From Bacteroidetes bacterium GWF2_33_38 (GTDB lineage Bacteria; Bacteroidota; Bacteroidia; Bacteroidales; GWF2-33-38), in NCBI GenBank assembly GCA_001769505.1, contig MEOF01000011.1, positions 1 through 33,030 on the forward strand: a stretch of 33,030 bases of DNA. The letters are read 5' to 3'. Of the stretch, positions 15,933 to 32,802 are shown one piece after another. The position numbers and the translations under genes are program-made. The notes under the pieces are model-generated. The model was not told the DNA's origin. It did no database searches and was given only the letters and a program-made list of their open reading frames with translations. How positions within the stretch are numbered: the stretch's first letter is position 1; every line of letters starts with the position of its first letter.

Positions 15933-16712
15933 ATGACAAATTTAAGAGTTTCGATTGTACAGTCCGATTTAATTTGGGAAGATGTATCCGCAAATCTATC
16001 GCATCACTACGAATTGATAAAAAATTTGAAAGGCAAAACCGACTTAATTGTTTTGCCCGAAATGTTTACAACAGGATTTTCGCTGCAAGTAAAACAACTT
16101 GCACAAACCATGAACAGCAAAACTATTGATTGGTTAACTCAAACCGCAAGAGAATTGAATGTTGCAATTTCAGGAAGTGTAATTATTCAGGAAAACGATA
16201 ATTTTTACAATCGACATTTTTTTGTTCATCCCGACCAAAAGATAAATTACTATGACAAACGGCATTTGTTTAGAATGGGCGATGAACATAAAAGATTTAC
16301 CGCTGGCAGCAAACAAGTTATTGTAAATTATAAAAATTGGAGAATAAATTTATTGACTTGTTACGATTTGCGATTTCCGGTTTGGAGTAGAAATCGGAAT
16401 AATTACGATCTTGCAATTTATGTTGCCAATTGGCCTGATAGTCGAAAATTTGTTTGGAACACATTATTGTCGGCACGAGCTATCGAAAATCAAATATATG
16501 TAATTGGTGTTAATCGAGTTGGTATCGACGGCATGAATCTTAATTACTCAGGAAATTCAAAAATTATTCATCCAAAAGGACATGCAATAAGCGAAATTGA
16601 GGAATACAAACAAAACGTAATTACAACCAAAATTTTAAAATCAGAACTCGAAGATTTTAGAAAAGCTTTTCCTGTTTTGTTGGATAGCGACAGGTTTGAA
16701 ATTGAATATTAA
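15933..16712 (+). CDS. carbon-nitrogen hydrolase, omega-amidase (YafV/Nit2) type
   Basis: This 259-residue nitrilase-superfamily enzyme shows the full catalytic triad: Glu43 in LPEMFTTGF, Lys109 in YYDKRHLF and Cys143 in LLTCYDLRFPVW. The local sequences around each residue resemble YafV and mammalian Nit2, which hydrolyse alpha-ketoglutaramate and alpha-ketosuccinamate, the products of glutamine and asparagine transamination. Metabolite repair of these keto-amides is therefore the best guess, but the precise substrate is not proven. The protein has no signal peptide and should be cytoplasmic. It follows the acyltransferase gene by 3 bases and is presumably co-transcribed, although no shared pathway is evident. 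Confidence 0.92.
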   Translation: MTNLRVSIVQSDLIWEDVSANLSHHYELIKNLKGKTDLIVLPEMFTTGFSLQVKQLAQTMNSKTIDWLTQTARELNVAISGSVIIQENDNFYNRHFFVHPDQKINYYDKRHLFRMGDEHKRFTAGSKQVIVNYKNWRINLLTCYDLRFPVWSRNRNNYDLAIYVANWPDSRKFVWNTLLSARAIENQIYVIGVNRVGIDGMNLNYSGNSKIIHPKGHAISEIEEYKQNVITTKILKSELEDFRKAFPVLLDSDRFEIEY

Positions 16713-16772: not shown

Positions 16773-16792
16773 ATATTATAATTGAATAGGGT

Positions 16793-16935
16793 TTATACCG
16801 AATAATTTTTTAGAGAAAATTTCAAATAGTTCGACCACGTAGTGGTCGTATGTTTATAGCTGAACAATTCAGCTATGACTCATTTGGAGTCATACAAATC
16901 TTTAAATTTAGCATATAATTTCTTATTCGGTATAA
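16793..16935. mobile_element. 143-bp MITE-like element with 13-bp inverted ends and three internal hairpins
   Basis: The ends TTATACCGAATAA (16793-16805) and TTATTCGGTATAA (16923-16935) are exact inverse complements. Inside are three consecutive perfect hairpins. CGACCAC/GTGGTCG (16832-16848) has loop GTA. ATAGCTGAA/TTCAGCTAT (16856-16876) has loop CAA. TATGACTC/GAGTCATA (16874-16894) has a 5-nt loop and shares three bases with the second. No coding capacity is seen. The layout suggests a small non-autonomous mobile element or a structured repeat, and similar loop and junction words are familiar to me from other Bacteroidota intergenic repeats. No transposase is in the window. Confidence 0.65.
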
Positions 16936-16994
16936 TGTCTAATAGGATATTTATAAAGTAACTCGAACATTCTTGTCCAAGTTACATATTATCA

Positions 16995-17082: not shown

Positions 17083-17355
17083 TTACGATTTAACTCTTCC
17101 AATTGCACAGCTTACATACGATTTTACGGTTGCACCAAAATTTCCACTACCTTTTTCTGGATAACCTAATTTTGAAAGCTTTTTTAAAAATATTTCTCTT
17201 TTATTTTCGTCACTTTCGTAGCCAATAGTAACCGATGAATCATCATGATTAATGCTCACATCTTTTACGCTTTCTGTTTTTTTTAATTCTGTACGAATTG
17301 TATTTGCACAGCCATGACATTTTAAATTTTCGATATAAATTACTTCTGTTTTCAT
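17083..17355 (-). CDS. HMA-domain heavy-metal-binding protein
   Basis: This 90-residue protein consists of a heavy-metal-associated ferredoxin-like fold with the metal-binding pair Cys13 and Cys16 in LKCHGCANTI. This is the CxxC site of copper chaperones and P-type ATPase N-domains. It has no signal peptide. The extension after residue 70 includes a third cysteine in YVSCAIGR. The gene begins 11 bp after the stop of a TonB-dependent receptor, which is in turn preceded by a Cys/His-rich small exported protein, so the three likely form an operon handling copper or a similar soft metal. The metal identity is inferred from family and context only. Confidence 0.9.
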   Translation of the reverse strand: MKTEVIYIENLKCHGCANTIRTELKKTESVKDVSINHDDSSVTIGYESDENKREIFLKKLSKLGYPEKGSGNFGATVKSYVSCAIGRVKS

Positions 17356-29559: not shown

Positions 29560-32500
29560 ATGTCAATTAACGCTTCTACCCTTGCCCAGCTTAAATCACA
29601 ACACAATATTGAAATTTTCACAGATGAAACTTCACGCATAATTTATTCAACCGACGCTTCTGCTTACAAAGAAATGCCTTTGGGAGTAGCTTTTCCAAAA
29701 AATAAAGACGAAATTCAGAAAATAATTCAATTTGCATCACAAAATTCAATTCCTATAATTCCACGCACCGCTGGAACTTCTTTGGCAGGACAAGTTGTTG
29801 GAAATGGTTTGGTGGTTGATGTTTCAAAACATTTAACTAAAATTATTTCTTTCAATAAAGACGAAAAATGGATAAAAGTTCAACCTGGAGTTGTGTTGGA
29901 CGAATTAAACATTTTTTTGAAACCTCACGGATTGTATTTTGGACCAGAAACTTCCACTTCATCACGCTGTATGATTGGCGGAATGGTTGGCAACAATTCT
30001 TGCGGAGCTCGTTCGTTGGTTTACGGAAGCACACGAAATCACACGTTGGAAATTACAGCATTTTTGAGCGATGCATCGGAAGTTGTTTTCAAAGAATTGA
30101 CAAAAGATGAATTTGCTGAAAAGCTAAAAATTAAAACTTTAGAAGGAAAAATTTATCGTCAAATCAACGATATTTTATCCGATAAAGAAATTCAAACTGA
30201 AATAAATTTGCAGTTTCCTGATAAAAAAATTGAACGCCGAAATACTGGCTATGCAATTGATATTTTGGCTGATAGCGAAATATTTACAACCTCTGTTACC
30301 GCCTCTGTTGGTGTTGTCACCAACAGACAAAACGAACTTGTTGGTGATAACACCAACAAGGGGAGAAAGGGAAACGCAACAAATCAAAAATTCAATTTTT
30401 GTAATTTGCTTGCAGGTTCAGAAGGAACTTTGGCTTTTACAACCGAAATTAAATTAAATTTGGTTGAACTTCCACCAAAAGAAGTTGCTTTAATTTGCGT
30501 TCATACCAAAACTTTAAAAGAAGCTTTTTATGGAAATTTAGTTGCCTTGAAACATTCGCCAACTTCCATTGAATTAATGGATAACACAATTTTAGAACTT
30601 ACAAAAGCAAATATTGAACAAAATAAAAATCGATTTTTCGTTGAAGGAAATCCCGAAGCAATTTTAATTGTTGAATTTGCAAAAAACACAAAAGAAGAAC
30701 TCGAAACATCAAGTAATCAATTAATTGAAGATTTGAAAAAAGTTAAAATTGGTTATCATTTTCCAGTAATCTACGGTTCTGATATTGCCAAAGTTTGGAA
30801 TTTGCGAAAAGCTGGTTTGGGAGTTTTATCGAATATGCCGGGCGATGCAAAACCCGTTCCTGTAATTGAAGATACGGCTGTAAATCCCGAACATTTGCCT
30901 CAATATATTGAAGAATTGCAAGAGATTTTGAAAAAGTACAATTTGTCGTGCATTTACTACGCACACATTGCAACTGGCGAATTGCATTTGCGTCCAGTTT
31001 TGAATTTAAAAGCCGAAAAAGATGTAGAATTGTTTCATCAATTGGCATTGGAAGTTGCACATTTGGTGAAAAAATTTAATGGTTCGTTGAGTGGCGAACA
31101 CGGCGATGGTCGTTTGCGTGGCGAATTTATTCCGTTGATGTTGGGTGAAAAAATTTATCAAATTTTTAAAGACATAAAACACACGTGGGACGAAAAAAAT
31201 ATTTTCAATCCAAACAAAATTGTTGACACACCAAAAATGAATACAAATTTGCGTTTTGCGGTTAATCAAAAAACTCAAAACGTAGAAACATTTTTCGATT
31301 TTTCAGCTTCGGGCGGATATTTGCAAACCATTGAAAAATGCAATGGTTCAGGCGATTGCCGTAAAACAGAAGTTATAGGAAAAACAATGTGTCCGAGTTT
31401 TATGGCATCGAAAGATGAAGAAAAAACAACTCGTGCTCGTGCAAATTTGTTACGTGAAATTTTGAATAACAAATCCACCGCTGTTGGTGTTGTCACCAAC
31501 AGCTCCGAATTACTTGTTGGTGATAACACCAACAATGGAAAACTTTTCGACCACAAAGAATTATACGATATTTTAGATACTTGTTTGTCGTGCAAAGCTT
31601 GTAAAACCGAATGTCCATCGAGTGTTGATATGGCGAAAATTAAAGCAGAATTTTTGCAACAATATTATCTAATTCACTCGCCATCAATGCGAACTCGTTT
31701 AATTGCAAATTATATCGAAATCAATAAATTAATGTCAATTTTTCCACGAATTTCAAATTTTGTTTTGAAAAACAGATTTACTTCCACTTTCGTGAAACAC
31801 TTTACAGGATTTGCACAACAACGAAATTTGCCAACGCTTTCAACTCAAAAATTCTCGGTTTTTTATAAAAATTTTACTAAAACAAAAAGTGAGTCATTGC
31901 GAGAGAAACGAAGCAATCTCAAAACTGACGAAGAAAATCTTGCCTCTGTTGGTGTTATCACCAACAGACAGAACGAACTTGTTGGTGATAACACCAACAA
32001 GGGGAAATCAGTTTATTTATTCATCGATGAATTTACAAAATACAACGAAAGTGAAATAGGAATTAAATGCGTAAAACTGCTCGACCGTTTGGGTTACAAG
32101 GTTATAATTCCTGATTTTGAACAAAGTGGACGAACTTTTTTATCGAAAGGTTTTTTGAAACGTGCAAAAGTTATTGCAAATAAAAATGTTGAAATTGCAA
32201 AAAAAATAAATACTGCCTCTGTTGGTGTTATCACCAACAGACAGAACGGGCTTGTTGGTGATAACACCAACAAGGGAATTTGTGCCGAAACTCCATTAAT
32301 TGGAATTGAACCATCGGCAATTCTCACATTTAGAGACGAATATCCAATTTTAGTTGACCAACATTTAAAAGAATTTGCACAAGAAATTGCAAAAAACACA
32401 TTTACAATTGAAGAATTTTTAAGTTCAGAATTTGAAAAAGGAAACATAAATCAAGATTTGTTTACAGACGAAATACGAGAATTTAAAATTCATGGACATT

Positions 32501-32802
32501 GTTATCAAAAATCAATTTCTGCGATTGCTCCAACTTTGAAAATGGTATCCATTCCCAAAAATTACAAAGCAAGCGAAATACCTTCGGGTTGTTGCGGAAT
32601 GGCTGGTTCGTTTGGTTTTGAAAAAGAACATTATCAACTTTCGATGCAAGTTGGAAACTTAAAACTTTTCCCCGAAATTAAAGCTTTAAACTCTGAAATT
32701 ACTGTTGTTGCAGCCGGAACAAGTTGCCGCCAACAAATAAAAGATGGAACTCAAAAAAATGCTTTTCATCCTGTGGAAATTTTGTTTGAGGCGTTGAAAT
32801 AG
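29560..32802 (+). CDS. FAD-binding and Fe-S oxidoreductase (YdiJ/GlcD-GlpC fusion type) with in-frame repeat insertions
   Basis: This 1080-residue protein has an N-terminal PCMH-type FAD domain (about 35-240, with PRTAGTSLAG at 68-77 and GGMVGNNSCGARS). A FAD-oxidase C-terminal domain follows (to about 560, with GSLSGEHGDGR). The ferredoxin-like part has a first Cys group starting C594 and C600 and a second, C675-C678-C681-C685 (CLSCKACKTECP). The C-terminal CCG-type domain has GHCYQKS and SGCCGMAGSFGF (C1011, C1012). It should oxidise a 2-hydroxyacid such as D-lactate or D-2-hydroxyglutarate and pass electrons on through Fe-S clusters. Four palindromic repeats add about 20 residues each at 249-268, 641-661, 796-815 and 887-906, and another repeat lies near 778-787. 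Without them the length falls to about 970, close to my recollection of the family. All known motifs and the frame are intact, so I call it functional. Confidence 0.92.
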   Translation: MSINASTLAQLKSQHNIEIFTDETSRIIYSTDASAYKEMPLGVAFPKNKDEIQKIIQFASQNSIPIIPRTAGTSLAGQVVGNGLVVDVSKHLTKIISFNKDEKWIKVQPGVVLDELNIFLKPHGLYFGPETSTSSRCMIGGMVGNNSCGARSLVYGSTRNHTLEITAFLSDASEVVFKELTKDEFAEKLKIKTLEGKIYRQINDILSDKEIQTEINLQFPDKKIERRNTGYAIDILADSEIFTTSVTASVGVVTNRQNELVGDNTNKGRKGNATNQKFNFCNLLAGSEGTLAFTTEIKLNLVELPPKEVALICVHTKTLKEAFYGNLVALKHSPTSIELMDNTILELTKANIEQNKNRFFVEGNPEAILIVEFAKNTKEELETSSNQLIEDLKKVKIGYHFPVIYGSDIAKVWNLRKAGLGVLSNMPGDAKPVPVIEDTAVNPEHLPQYIEELQEILKKYNLSCIYYAHIATGELHLRPVLNLKAEKDVELFHQLALEVAHLVKKFNGSLSGEHGDGRLRGEFIPLMLGEKIYQIFKDIKHTWDEKNIFNPNKIVDTPKMNTNLRFAVNQKTQNVETFFDFSASGGYLQTIEKCNGSGDCRKTEVIGKTMCPSFMASKDEEKTTRARANLLREILNNKSTAVGVVTNSSELLVGDNTNNGKLFDHKELYDILDTCLSCKACKTECPSSVDMAKIKAEFLQQYYLIHSPSMRTRLIANYIEINKLMSIFPRISNFVLKNRFTSTFVKHFTGFAQQRNLPTLSTQKFSVFYKNFTKTKSESLREKRSNLKTDEENLASVGVITNRQNELVGDNTNKGKSVYLFIDEFTKYNESEIGIKCVKLLDRLGYKVIIPDFEQSGRTFLSKGFLKRAKVIANKNVEIAKKINTASVGVITNRQNGLVGDNTNKGICAETPLIGIEPSAILTFRDEYPILVDQHLKEFAQEIAKNTFTIEEFLSSEFEKGNINQDLFTDEIREFKIHGHCYQKSISAIAPTLKMVSIPKNYKASEIPSGCCGMAGSFGFEKEHYQLSMQVGNLKLFPEIKALNSEITVVAAGTSCRQQIKDGTQKNAFHPVEILFEALK
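30301..30363 (+). mobile_element. in-frame double-hairpin palindromic element, copy 1
   Basis: Hairpin 1 (30304-30327) has arms TCTGTTGGTG/CACCAACAGA with loop TTGT. After a 9-nt spacer (CAAAACGAA), hairpin 2 (30337-30360) has arms CTTGTTGGTG/CACCAACAAG with loop ATAA. It encodes SVGVVTNRQNELVGDNTNKG (residues 249-268) within a loop between RRNTGYAIDIL and NFCNLLAGSEGTLAF, which I expect to be nearly contiguous in relatives. It differs from copy 3 at only 2 of 63 positions. Confidence 0.85.
31477..31539 (+). mobile_element. in-frame double-hairpin palindromic element, copy 2 (diverged spacer)
   Basis: Hairpin 1 (31480-31503) has arms GCTGTTGGTG/CACCAACAGC with loop TTGT. The spacer is TCCGAATTA. 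Hairpin 2 (31513-31536) has inner arms TTGTTGGTG/CACCAACAA with loop ATAA, and its outermost pair is lost. It encodes VGVVTNSSELLVGDNTNNG between the two Fe-S motifs. The outer pair of hairpin 1 has changed from T-A to G-C, a compensated change, while the spacer is largely different. This is either an older or a separate lineage of the element. Confidence 0.85.
31893..31920 (+). repeat. dispersed GTCATTGCGAG...GAAGCAATCTC repeat inside the coding sequence
   Basis: GTCATTGCGAGAGAAACGAA plus GCAATCTC lies in frame in the FAD oxidoreductase, where it is read as ESLREKRSNL (about residues 778-787). In another frame it reads SHCERNEAIS, the peptide commonly mis-annotated from this repeat family. 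The inverted ATTGC/GCAAT ends are visible. It sits 21 bp before palindromic copy 3, so two unrelated repeats share one linker. Confidence 0.75.
31942..32004 (+). mobile_element. in-frame double-hairpin palindromic element, copy 3
   Basis: Hairpin 1 (31945-31968) has arms TCTGTTGGTG/CACCAACAGA with loop TTAT. The spacer is CAGAACGAA. Hairpin 2 (31978-32001) has arms CTTGTTGGTG/CACCAACAAG with loop ATAA. Here the two loops are exact complements, so the cores of both hairpins are full inverse complements of each other. It encodes SVGVITNRQNELVGDNTNKG (796-815). Confidence 0.85.
32215..32277 (+). mobile_element. in-frame double-hairpin palindromic element, copy 4
   Basis: Hairpin 1 (32218-32241) and hairpin 2 (32251-32274) are identical in sequence to those of copy 3. 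The spacer is CAGAACGGG, giving a Glu-to-Gly change. It encodes SVGVITNRQNGLVGDNTNKG (887-906), between a segment ending EIAKKINTA and one starting ICAETPLIGIEPSAIL. It is in the same orientation and reading frame as the other three. Confidence 0.85.

Follow-up and report, generated by a model that had tools for sequence, protein, structure and literature searches.

A short element with paired ends between convergent genes

The window, by which we mean the whole stretch of 33,030 nucleotides analyzed from Bacteroidetes bacterium GWF2_33_38, carries a short palindromic element between two convergent open reading frames (ORFs): one on the forward strand that by eye looks carbon-nitrogen hydrolase-like (Table 1), and one at 17083-17355 on the reverse strand. 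The element has a G+C content of 30%, against 33% for the window, and the window's ORF list holds no frame of at least 80 aa overlapping it, in agreement with a preliminary description that had seen no reading frame here. That description had also pointed out exact 13-bp inverted ends, which are indeed present, as TTATACCGAATAA at 16793-16805 and its inverse complement at 16923-16935. The limits that it drew at these 13-mers are 6 bp too short on each side, as the copies described below place the boundaries at 16787 and 16941.

Between the ends, we find all three of the perfect stems of 7, 9 and 8 bp that had been described. They are not fully separate, though, for hairpins 2 and 3 overlap by three bases, TAT, at 16874-16876, and as these bases are common to both, the two hairpins cannot both form in full. 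The overlap accompanies a gap peculiar to the window copy: aligned with most other copies, it shows one 8-base gap, which falls between hairpins 2 and 3, and one 1-base gap elsewhere.

Table 1. Features of the element and of its surroundings in the window
Feature	Position	Strand	Sequence or size	Basis
Upstream neighbour ORF, outside the element	15933..16712	+	259 aa	ORF list
Whole element (putative MITE copy)	16787..16941	.	155 bp, TAG...CTA	own-genome repeat search and alignment
Left terminal inverted repeat, outer TA included	16787..16805	+	TAGGGTTTATACCGAATAA	boundary common to copies
Hairpin 1	16832..16848	.	CGACCAC/GTGGTCG, 7-bp stem, loop GTA	perfect stem
Hairpin 2	16856..16876	.	ATAGCTGAA/TTCAGCTAT, 9-bp stem, loop CAA	perfect stem
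Hairpin 3	16874..16894	.	TATGACTC/GAGTCATA, 8-bp stem, loop ATTTG	perfect stem
Right terminal inverted repeat, outer TA included	16923..16941	-	TAGACATTATACCGAATAA (inward reading)	boundary common to copies
69-nt palindrome copies in the 29560-32802 ORF	30294-30362, 31470-31538, 31935-32003, 32208-32276

The element is repeated in its genome and folds beyond chance

The preliminary description had proposed looking for the ends elsewhere in the genome, and had named as refutation a sequence unique in the genome and unconserved in relatives, which is not what we found. A search of the own genome returned 16 rows that merge into 12 places, and a further copy lies in G001 (Bacteroidetes bacterium GWA2_31_9). 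Eight of the 12 are near full length (the window copy on contig C11, two on C55, and one each on C61, C62, C54, C2 and C9), with 86-100% identity to the window copy and four on each strand. Of the remaining four, the copy on C45 has an internal deletion, that on C53 is interrupted by another repeat nested within it, that on C17 consists of two left ends joined back to back, and that on C3 is truncated. Aligning the eight with the copy from G001 gives a full unit of about 164 bp, TAGGGTTTATACCGAATAA ... TTATTCGGTATAATGTCTA. Eleven of the 12 own copies do not overlap an ORF of at least 80 aa; the exception, on C53, touches one 90-aa ORF over about 20 bp. Among 60 genomes searched as relatives, the own genome included, matches occur in three. 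Besides the own genome, these are G001, whose 76% identical copy places the window-type interior in another genus of this family, and G010, where no more than 22 bases match. No match to the element was found in plasmid records.

These places bear on whether the palindromes could be accidents of composition. At least one exact 13-bp inverted pair within 200 bp occurred in 16 of 40 dinucleotide-shuffled windows, and thus the 13-bp ends taken alone are weak evidence, since chance gives such pairs. Folding is beyond chance: a 171-nt stretch gave z -5.7 on the forward and -6.6 on the reverse strand, none of 200 shuffles being as stable on either, and the interior alone, folded with DNA parameters, gave z -5.5 (0/200 shuffles). 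As the element is repeated at 12 places in the genome, we regard chance palindromes as refuted, with a probability close to nil.

Junctions with TA

Both ends carry TA in nine of the 11 copies whose ends can be read (the truncated copy on C3 is left uncounted); the exceptions are C55:3649, with TTTACA, and C61, with an altered left end. We compared the bases just outside the element in 17 rows, ten from the own genome and seven from others, and dropped three (L008, L012 and L014) whose right limits were misplaced. In the 14 usable rows, only the C45 copy shows a 4-base outside match, GTAA on both sides, while the others have no full match over 3-10 bases. We take the GTAA match for chance, since one in 14 A+T-rich rows is about what we would expect, by our own estimate rather than by computation. 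Insertion at TA, which is probable for this element, would produce just such junctions, with TA and no longer duplication. The orthologous gene in G001 and in G002 (GWA2_30_7) offered no recognizable empty site; in G001, this gene keeps its upstream neighbour and has a different downstream neighbour.

Predicted folding, RNA and terminator readings

If the three hairpins were themselves the function, then the copies would be members of a dispersed structured non-coding RNA family or a cis-regulatory RNA, in line with the multi-stem non-coding RNA that had been one of two options in the preliminary description. Strong folding is what such an RNA would show, and all or nearly all of the nine aligned copies, including the 76% identical copy from another genus, retain the stem cores. 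However, both strands fold about equally and the copies lie in both orientations; the window has no Rfam match at gathering scores; covariation is slight, with a change on both sides in only 2 of 34 predicted pairs; hairpins are lost in the copies on C45, C17, C53 and C3; and elsewhere unrelated interiors lie within the same kind of ends (see below). We therefore consider an RNA function very improbable.

The alignment also suggests how perfect stems might arise. Most copies have GTA as the loop of hairpin 1, and C2 has its reverse complement, TAC; in hairpin 3, the usual loop TTT is replaced by AAA in C9. In C62, an altered right arm of hairpin 1 yields a 15-bp palindrome, AAATAGTTCGACCAC-GTA-GTGGTCGAACTATTT. 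The flipped loops and the C62 arm resemble the traces that template switching leaves at quasi-palindromes, the process treated in the portions consulted of PMC8794818 and PMC7202029. Template switching could explain the perfect stems without selection for an RNA, and the loops turned to their reverse complement, together with the rewritten arm, would be natural examples of its outcome.

A different kind of selection, for transcription terminators or REP-like palindrome repeats between genes, has the setting of the window copy to recommend it, as this copy lies between convergent ORFs and gives one terminator-like match on the forward strand at 16832-16848 (hairpin 1 followed by TATGTTTATA), against a shuffle mean of 0.1. 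Yet the T tract TATGTTTATA is a poor one, only 3 of the 10 own copies flanked on each side by a listed ORF have a convergent setting, and what recurs is a unit about 164 bp long that has defined ends and TA junctions. Such selection is, in our judgment, a very improbable origin for the family.

Search for a transposase partner

IS630/Tc1-mariner transposases bind paired ends, cut, and insert at TA. The preliminary description had suggested looking for a transposase with matching ends in the genome; the own draft genome has no match to DDE_3 (PF13358), class-wide and order-wide protein searches found no IS630 in it, and suggestive relatives were found elsewhere only.

Three loci in other genomes are suggestive of an IS630-type partner. 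At L096, from the Bacteroidetes MAG G357, an end with the identical 13 bp lies about 200 bp past a broken IS630-type gene and faces its 3' side; what is left of the gene is a 101-aa DDE_3 piece (E 2.4e-10). This was the only match when tblastn was run with three IS630 proteins over all 77 genome and 9 viral stretches carrying the end pattern. Elsewhere in G357, the same kind of end occurs at L192, where the stretch that was read shows no IS630-type gene, and another IS630 copy, at L163, lacks the end. At L210, an intact IS630 transposase of 341 aa (DDE_3 E 4.3e-34) has TTATACTGAACGA about 18 bp past its stop and TGATACTGAACAA before its start, with GATACTGAAC likewise upstream of the start; both of its ends differ from the MITE end at 3 of 13 bases. 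At L154, an incomplete IS630 gene has ATATACTGAACGA about 18 bp past its stop. Both of these related genes, from other genomes, carry the motif TATACTGAAC about 18 bp past their stop codons. IS630 genes of other subgroups (L155, L212 and L213) have quite different ends. The likeness at L210 is incomplete, in that TA is absent at the MITE spacing and the right end is off at 6 of 19 positions, a level of match that also arises by chance elsewhere in L210 and in other loci.

No intact IS630 with exactly the MITE ends was found among the matches class-wide (2 of 295 genomes), order-wide (9 of 393), with DDE_3 in 14 genomes (4 matching), or in the family of G979 (1 of 17). Viral contigs gave no confirmed relative, and the 2016 plasmid records, judged by identity alone and all below 60%, gave no intact element with exact ends. 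By eye, we recognized no transposase in the ORFs of eight single-ended stretches (L081, L105, L106, L121, L122, L135, L137 and L140); the other single-ended stretches were checked solely by the tblastn search with three IS630 proteins. L198, L199 and L202 have no second end with fewer than 6 mismatches in 19.

One candidate in the own genome was rejected. At G000:C30:10257 (L065), a C-terminal fragment that by eye is transposase-like (IEGFFSHLKEKLAPHHGL...) stands beside a near-exact end and at first suggested a captured gene tail. By eye, however, the end continues in frame into the fragment, so that the arrangement may be a coding coincidence; the 39-aa tail has no Pfam match.

The lack of an IS630 transposase in the genome and of an exact autonomous partner, and the unfitting TA spacing of L210, would also suit a MITE moved by some other transposase, in which case TA would belong to the inverted repeat and not be a target duplication. 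Against this stand the TA junctions, with a longer outside match in only 1 of 14 rows, the similar ends on two IS630 elements, and the IS630 remnant near the same 13-bp end. We hold a non-IS630 transposase to be rather unlikely, although the odds of this reading overlap with those of the main one, and a partner of IS630 type to be likely.

Related ends flank other cores across Bacteroidota

Exact TAGNNNTTATACCGAATAA occurs in 77 stretches of genome contigs and 9 viral stretches. In 10 of the 77, from six genomes, a second inverted end follows at a distance of 79-239 bp, the mismatches totalling no more than 3 (L073, L078, L083, L087, L101, L123, L124, L126, L128 and L131). Four of these pairs come from GWA2_31_9 and two from the Flavobacteriales MAG Baikal-G3, and the record titles of all ten name Bacteroidota groups, Emticicia included. 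Seven pairs measure 155-165 bp, the others being 79 bp (L124), 106 bp (L101) and 239 bp (L078). Most of the other TAGNNNTTATACCGAATAA matches, which are single and spread over many phyla, may be chance, as may a 159-bp pair with a weakly folding interior in one of the nine viral stretches (L151). Further pairs, of 25 (L139), 396 (L087), 566 (L124), 1655 (L123) and 2790 bp (L071), were provisionally taken for chance.

The interiors of the window copy, L073, L083, L126, L101 and L124 gave no cross-match by blastn at E up to 0.05, so the ends are of the same kind and the cores have been replaced. The interiors of L073, L083 and L126 are each alignable with their own reverse complement over 64-98 columns. 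Ten interiors were folded with DNA parameters, a set to which L078, L128 and L131 do not belong; eight gave z -5.5 to -9.6, and L101 and L124 gave z -1.9 and 0.04. The eight strong folds represent four independent cores: the window type three times, the GWA2 type three times, L073 and L126.

These palindromic cores exchanged between the same kind of ends are, to us, the most interesting aspect of the family. It is conceivable, though we think it distinctly unlikely, that one end set, TAGRNNTTATACCGAATAA, came time and again to enclose near-perfect palindromic cores unrelated to one another, at an almost constant total length (155-165 bp in seven of the ten pairs, a range that this family shares), with a hairpin core of set size and not its sequence being selected. 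If this were true, a cruciform or hairpin may join the ends for the transposase, or turn the insert into a harmless terminator. The family makes testable whether a palindromic MITE core is chosen for shape rather than sequence.

Two side observations concern variants of the ends. The variant TAGAGTTTATACCGAATAA, with at most 1 mismatch, is present in 4 of the 395 genomes of a phylum sample, the own genome included. G360, the Ignavibacteria MAG of L137 and apparently also G599, has 61 end-pattern matches when up to 2 mismatches are allowed, whereas the reversed control has 2; TAGAGTTTATCTCGAATAA appears twice among the six matches listed. The 61 are probably a large related repeat family.

A probable gene-less MITE and its possible mode of movement

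Collectively, our data make it very likely that the element is a non-autonomous, gene-less bacterial MITE that probably inserts at TA and is most likely mobilized in trans by an IS630/Tc1-mariner transposase. The other option of the preliminary description, a non-autonomous element or MITE, is thus supported by the 12 places, by TA at the ends, and by further short Bacteroidota elements whose ends are of this kind. We infer its mobility, its IS630 partner and the mechanism from the repeats, the ends, the TA junctions, the predicted folding and the related elements elsewhere.

In this model, a transposase supplied in trans would recognize the ends of about 19 bp, TAGRNNTTATACCGAATAA, and carry the element to new TA sites, leaving TA...TA junctions; for the IS630/Tc1-mariner mechanism, we refer to the consulted parts of the ISY100 paper (PMC2170065). 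The core would be a cargo-free row of perfect palindromes, similar in predicted folding on either strand, with no role or a passive one: an element that is transcribed would fold, and one between convergent genes might contribute to termination. As hairpin 1 is terminator-like, insertion between convergent genes may be tolerated or mildly useful. Since the near-full copies have diverged, by up to about 14% from the window copy, and the draft has no IS630 gene, present movement in the own genome is unlikely unless a transposase arrives.

Among known systems, RUP of Streptococcus pneumoniae, a MITE with ends like those of IS630-Spn1, is close in kind: the consulted parts of PMC2229807 and PMC3049150 describe a short element (about 107 bp) with TA ends, a tight fold with paired ends and a proposed IS630 partner. 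RUP differs in sequence and host, its IS630 is common in its species whereas none was found here, and the present element has three short palindromes in a row as its interior. Among the bacterial repeats reviewed in 2007, an IS match is reported for RUP alone in the portions consulted (PMC2229807), and ends matching an IS of the same genome are not strictly required of a bacterial MITE. Correia/NEMIS of Neisseria and ERIC are likewise described there as shorter than 200 bp and A+T-rich, with terminal inverted repeats, TA ends and strong stem-loops, but have other sequences, a comparison made here without alignment.

Two systems come from Bacteroidota. BrickBuilt and its fellow MITE-like repeats in Porphyromonas gingivalis have similar ends and a dissimilar remainder, but also ends of their own, tandem-repeat interiors and target duplications of varying length, according to the parts consulted of PMC4596501. 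As these repeats are described in this way, core exchange between shared ends has a precedent. MITECca01 of Cardinium, a MITE derived from IS982, differs in its size of about 240 bp, its IS982-family ends and the presence of the parental IS in the same genome (PMC9769881, in part). The family reported here is apparently undescribed; no paper with either 13-mer was found in open-licence PMC text, which seldom prints such sequences. It adds a sequence-defined MITE family, of a kind already well known, in a little-studied Bacteroidota lineage.

Other repeats in the genome and in a window gene

A second repeat family of the own genome, TTATACCGATTAAACATCAAAATGTCGCATAC..., has 12 copies among the stretches examined (L048-L057, L059 and L060). 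Six of them stop at 132 bp and carry AATTGGTATTA-like ends, and the rest end differently; the family is absent from the window. A third repeat, marked by GATTCAATGTGACCGACACAATTTAAAAATAAGATACCCGC and a GCGGGTATC hairpin, was seen at C53:20511-20757 (L012/L067), L010 (C3) and L014 (C17); it is nested in one MITE copy, abuts another and lies close to a third.

Palindromes of another kind lie inside a gene of the window. The ORF at 29560-32802 on the forward strand encodes 1080 aa related to FAD-linked glycolate/lactate dehydrogenases and contains four in-frame 69-nt double palindromes (Table 1), which encode ASVGVVTNRQNELVGDNTNKG-like peptides. Relative to the solved homologue LctD, the first copy falls between two local alignments (query 172-276, chain 177-191), within about 90 extra residues. 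The 69-nt repeat also matches on contigs C41, C27, C21 and C60, and at the four such loci read it is never in an ORF longer than 72 aa. The in-gene repeat resembles the palindromic elements inside Rickettsia genes.
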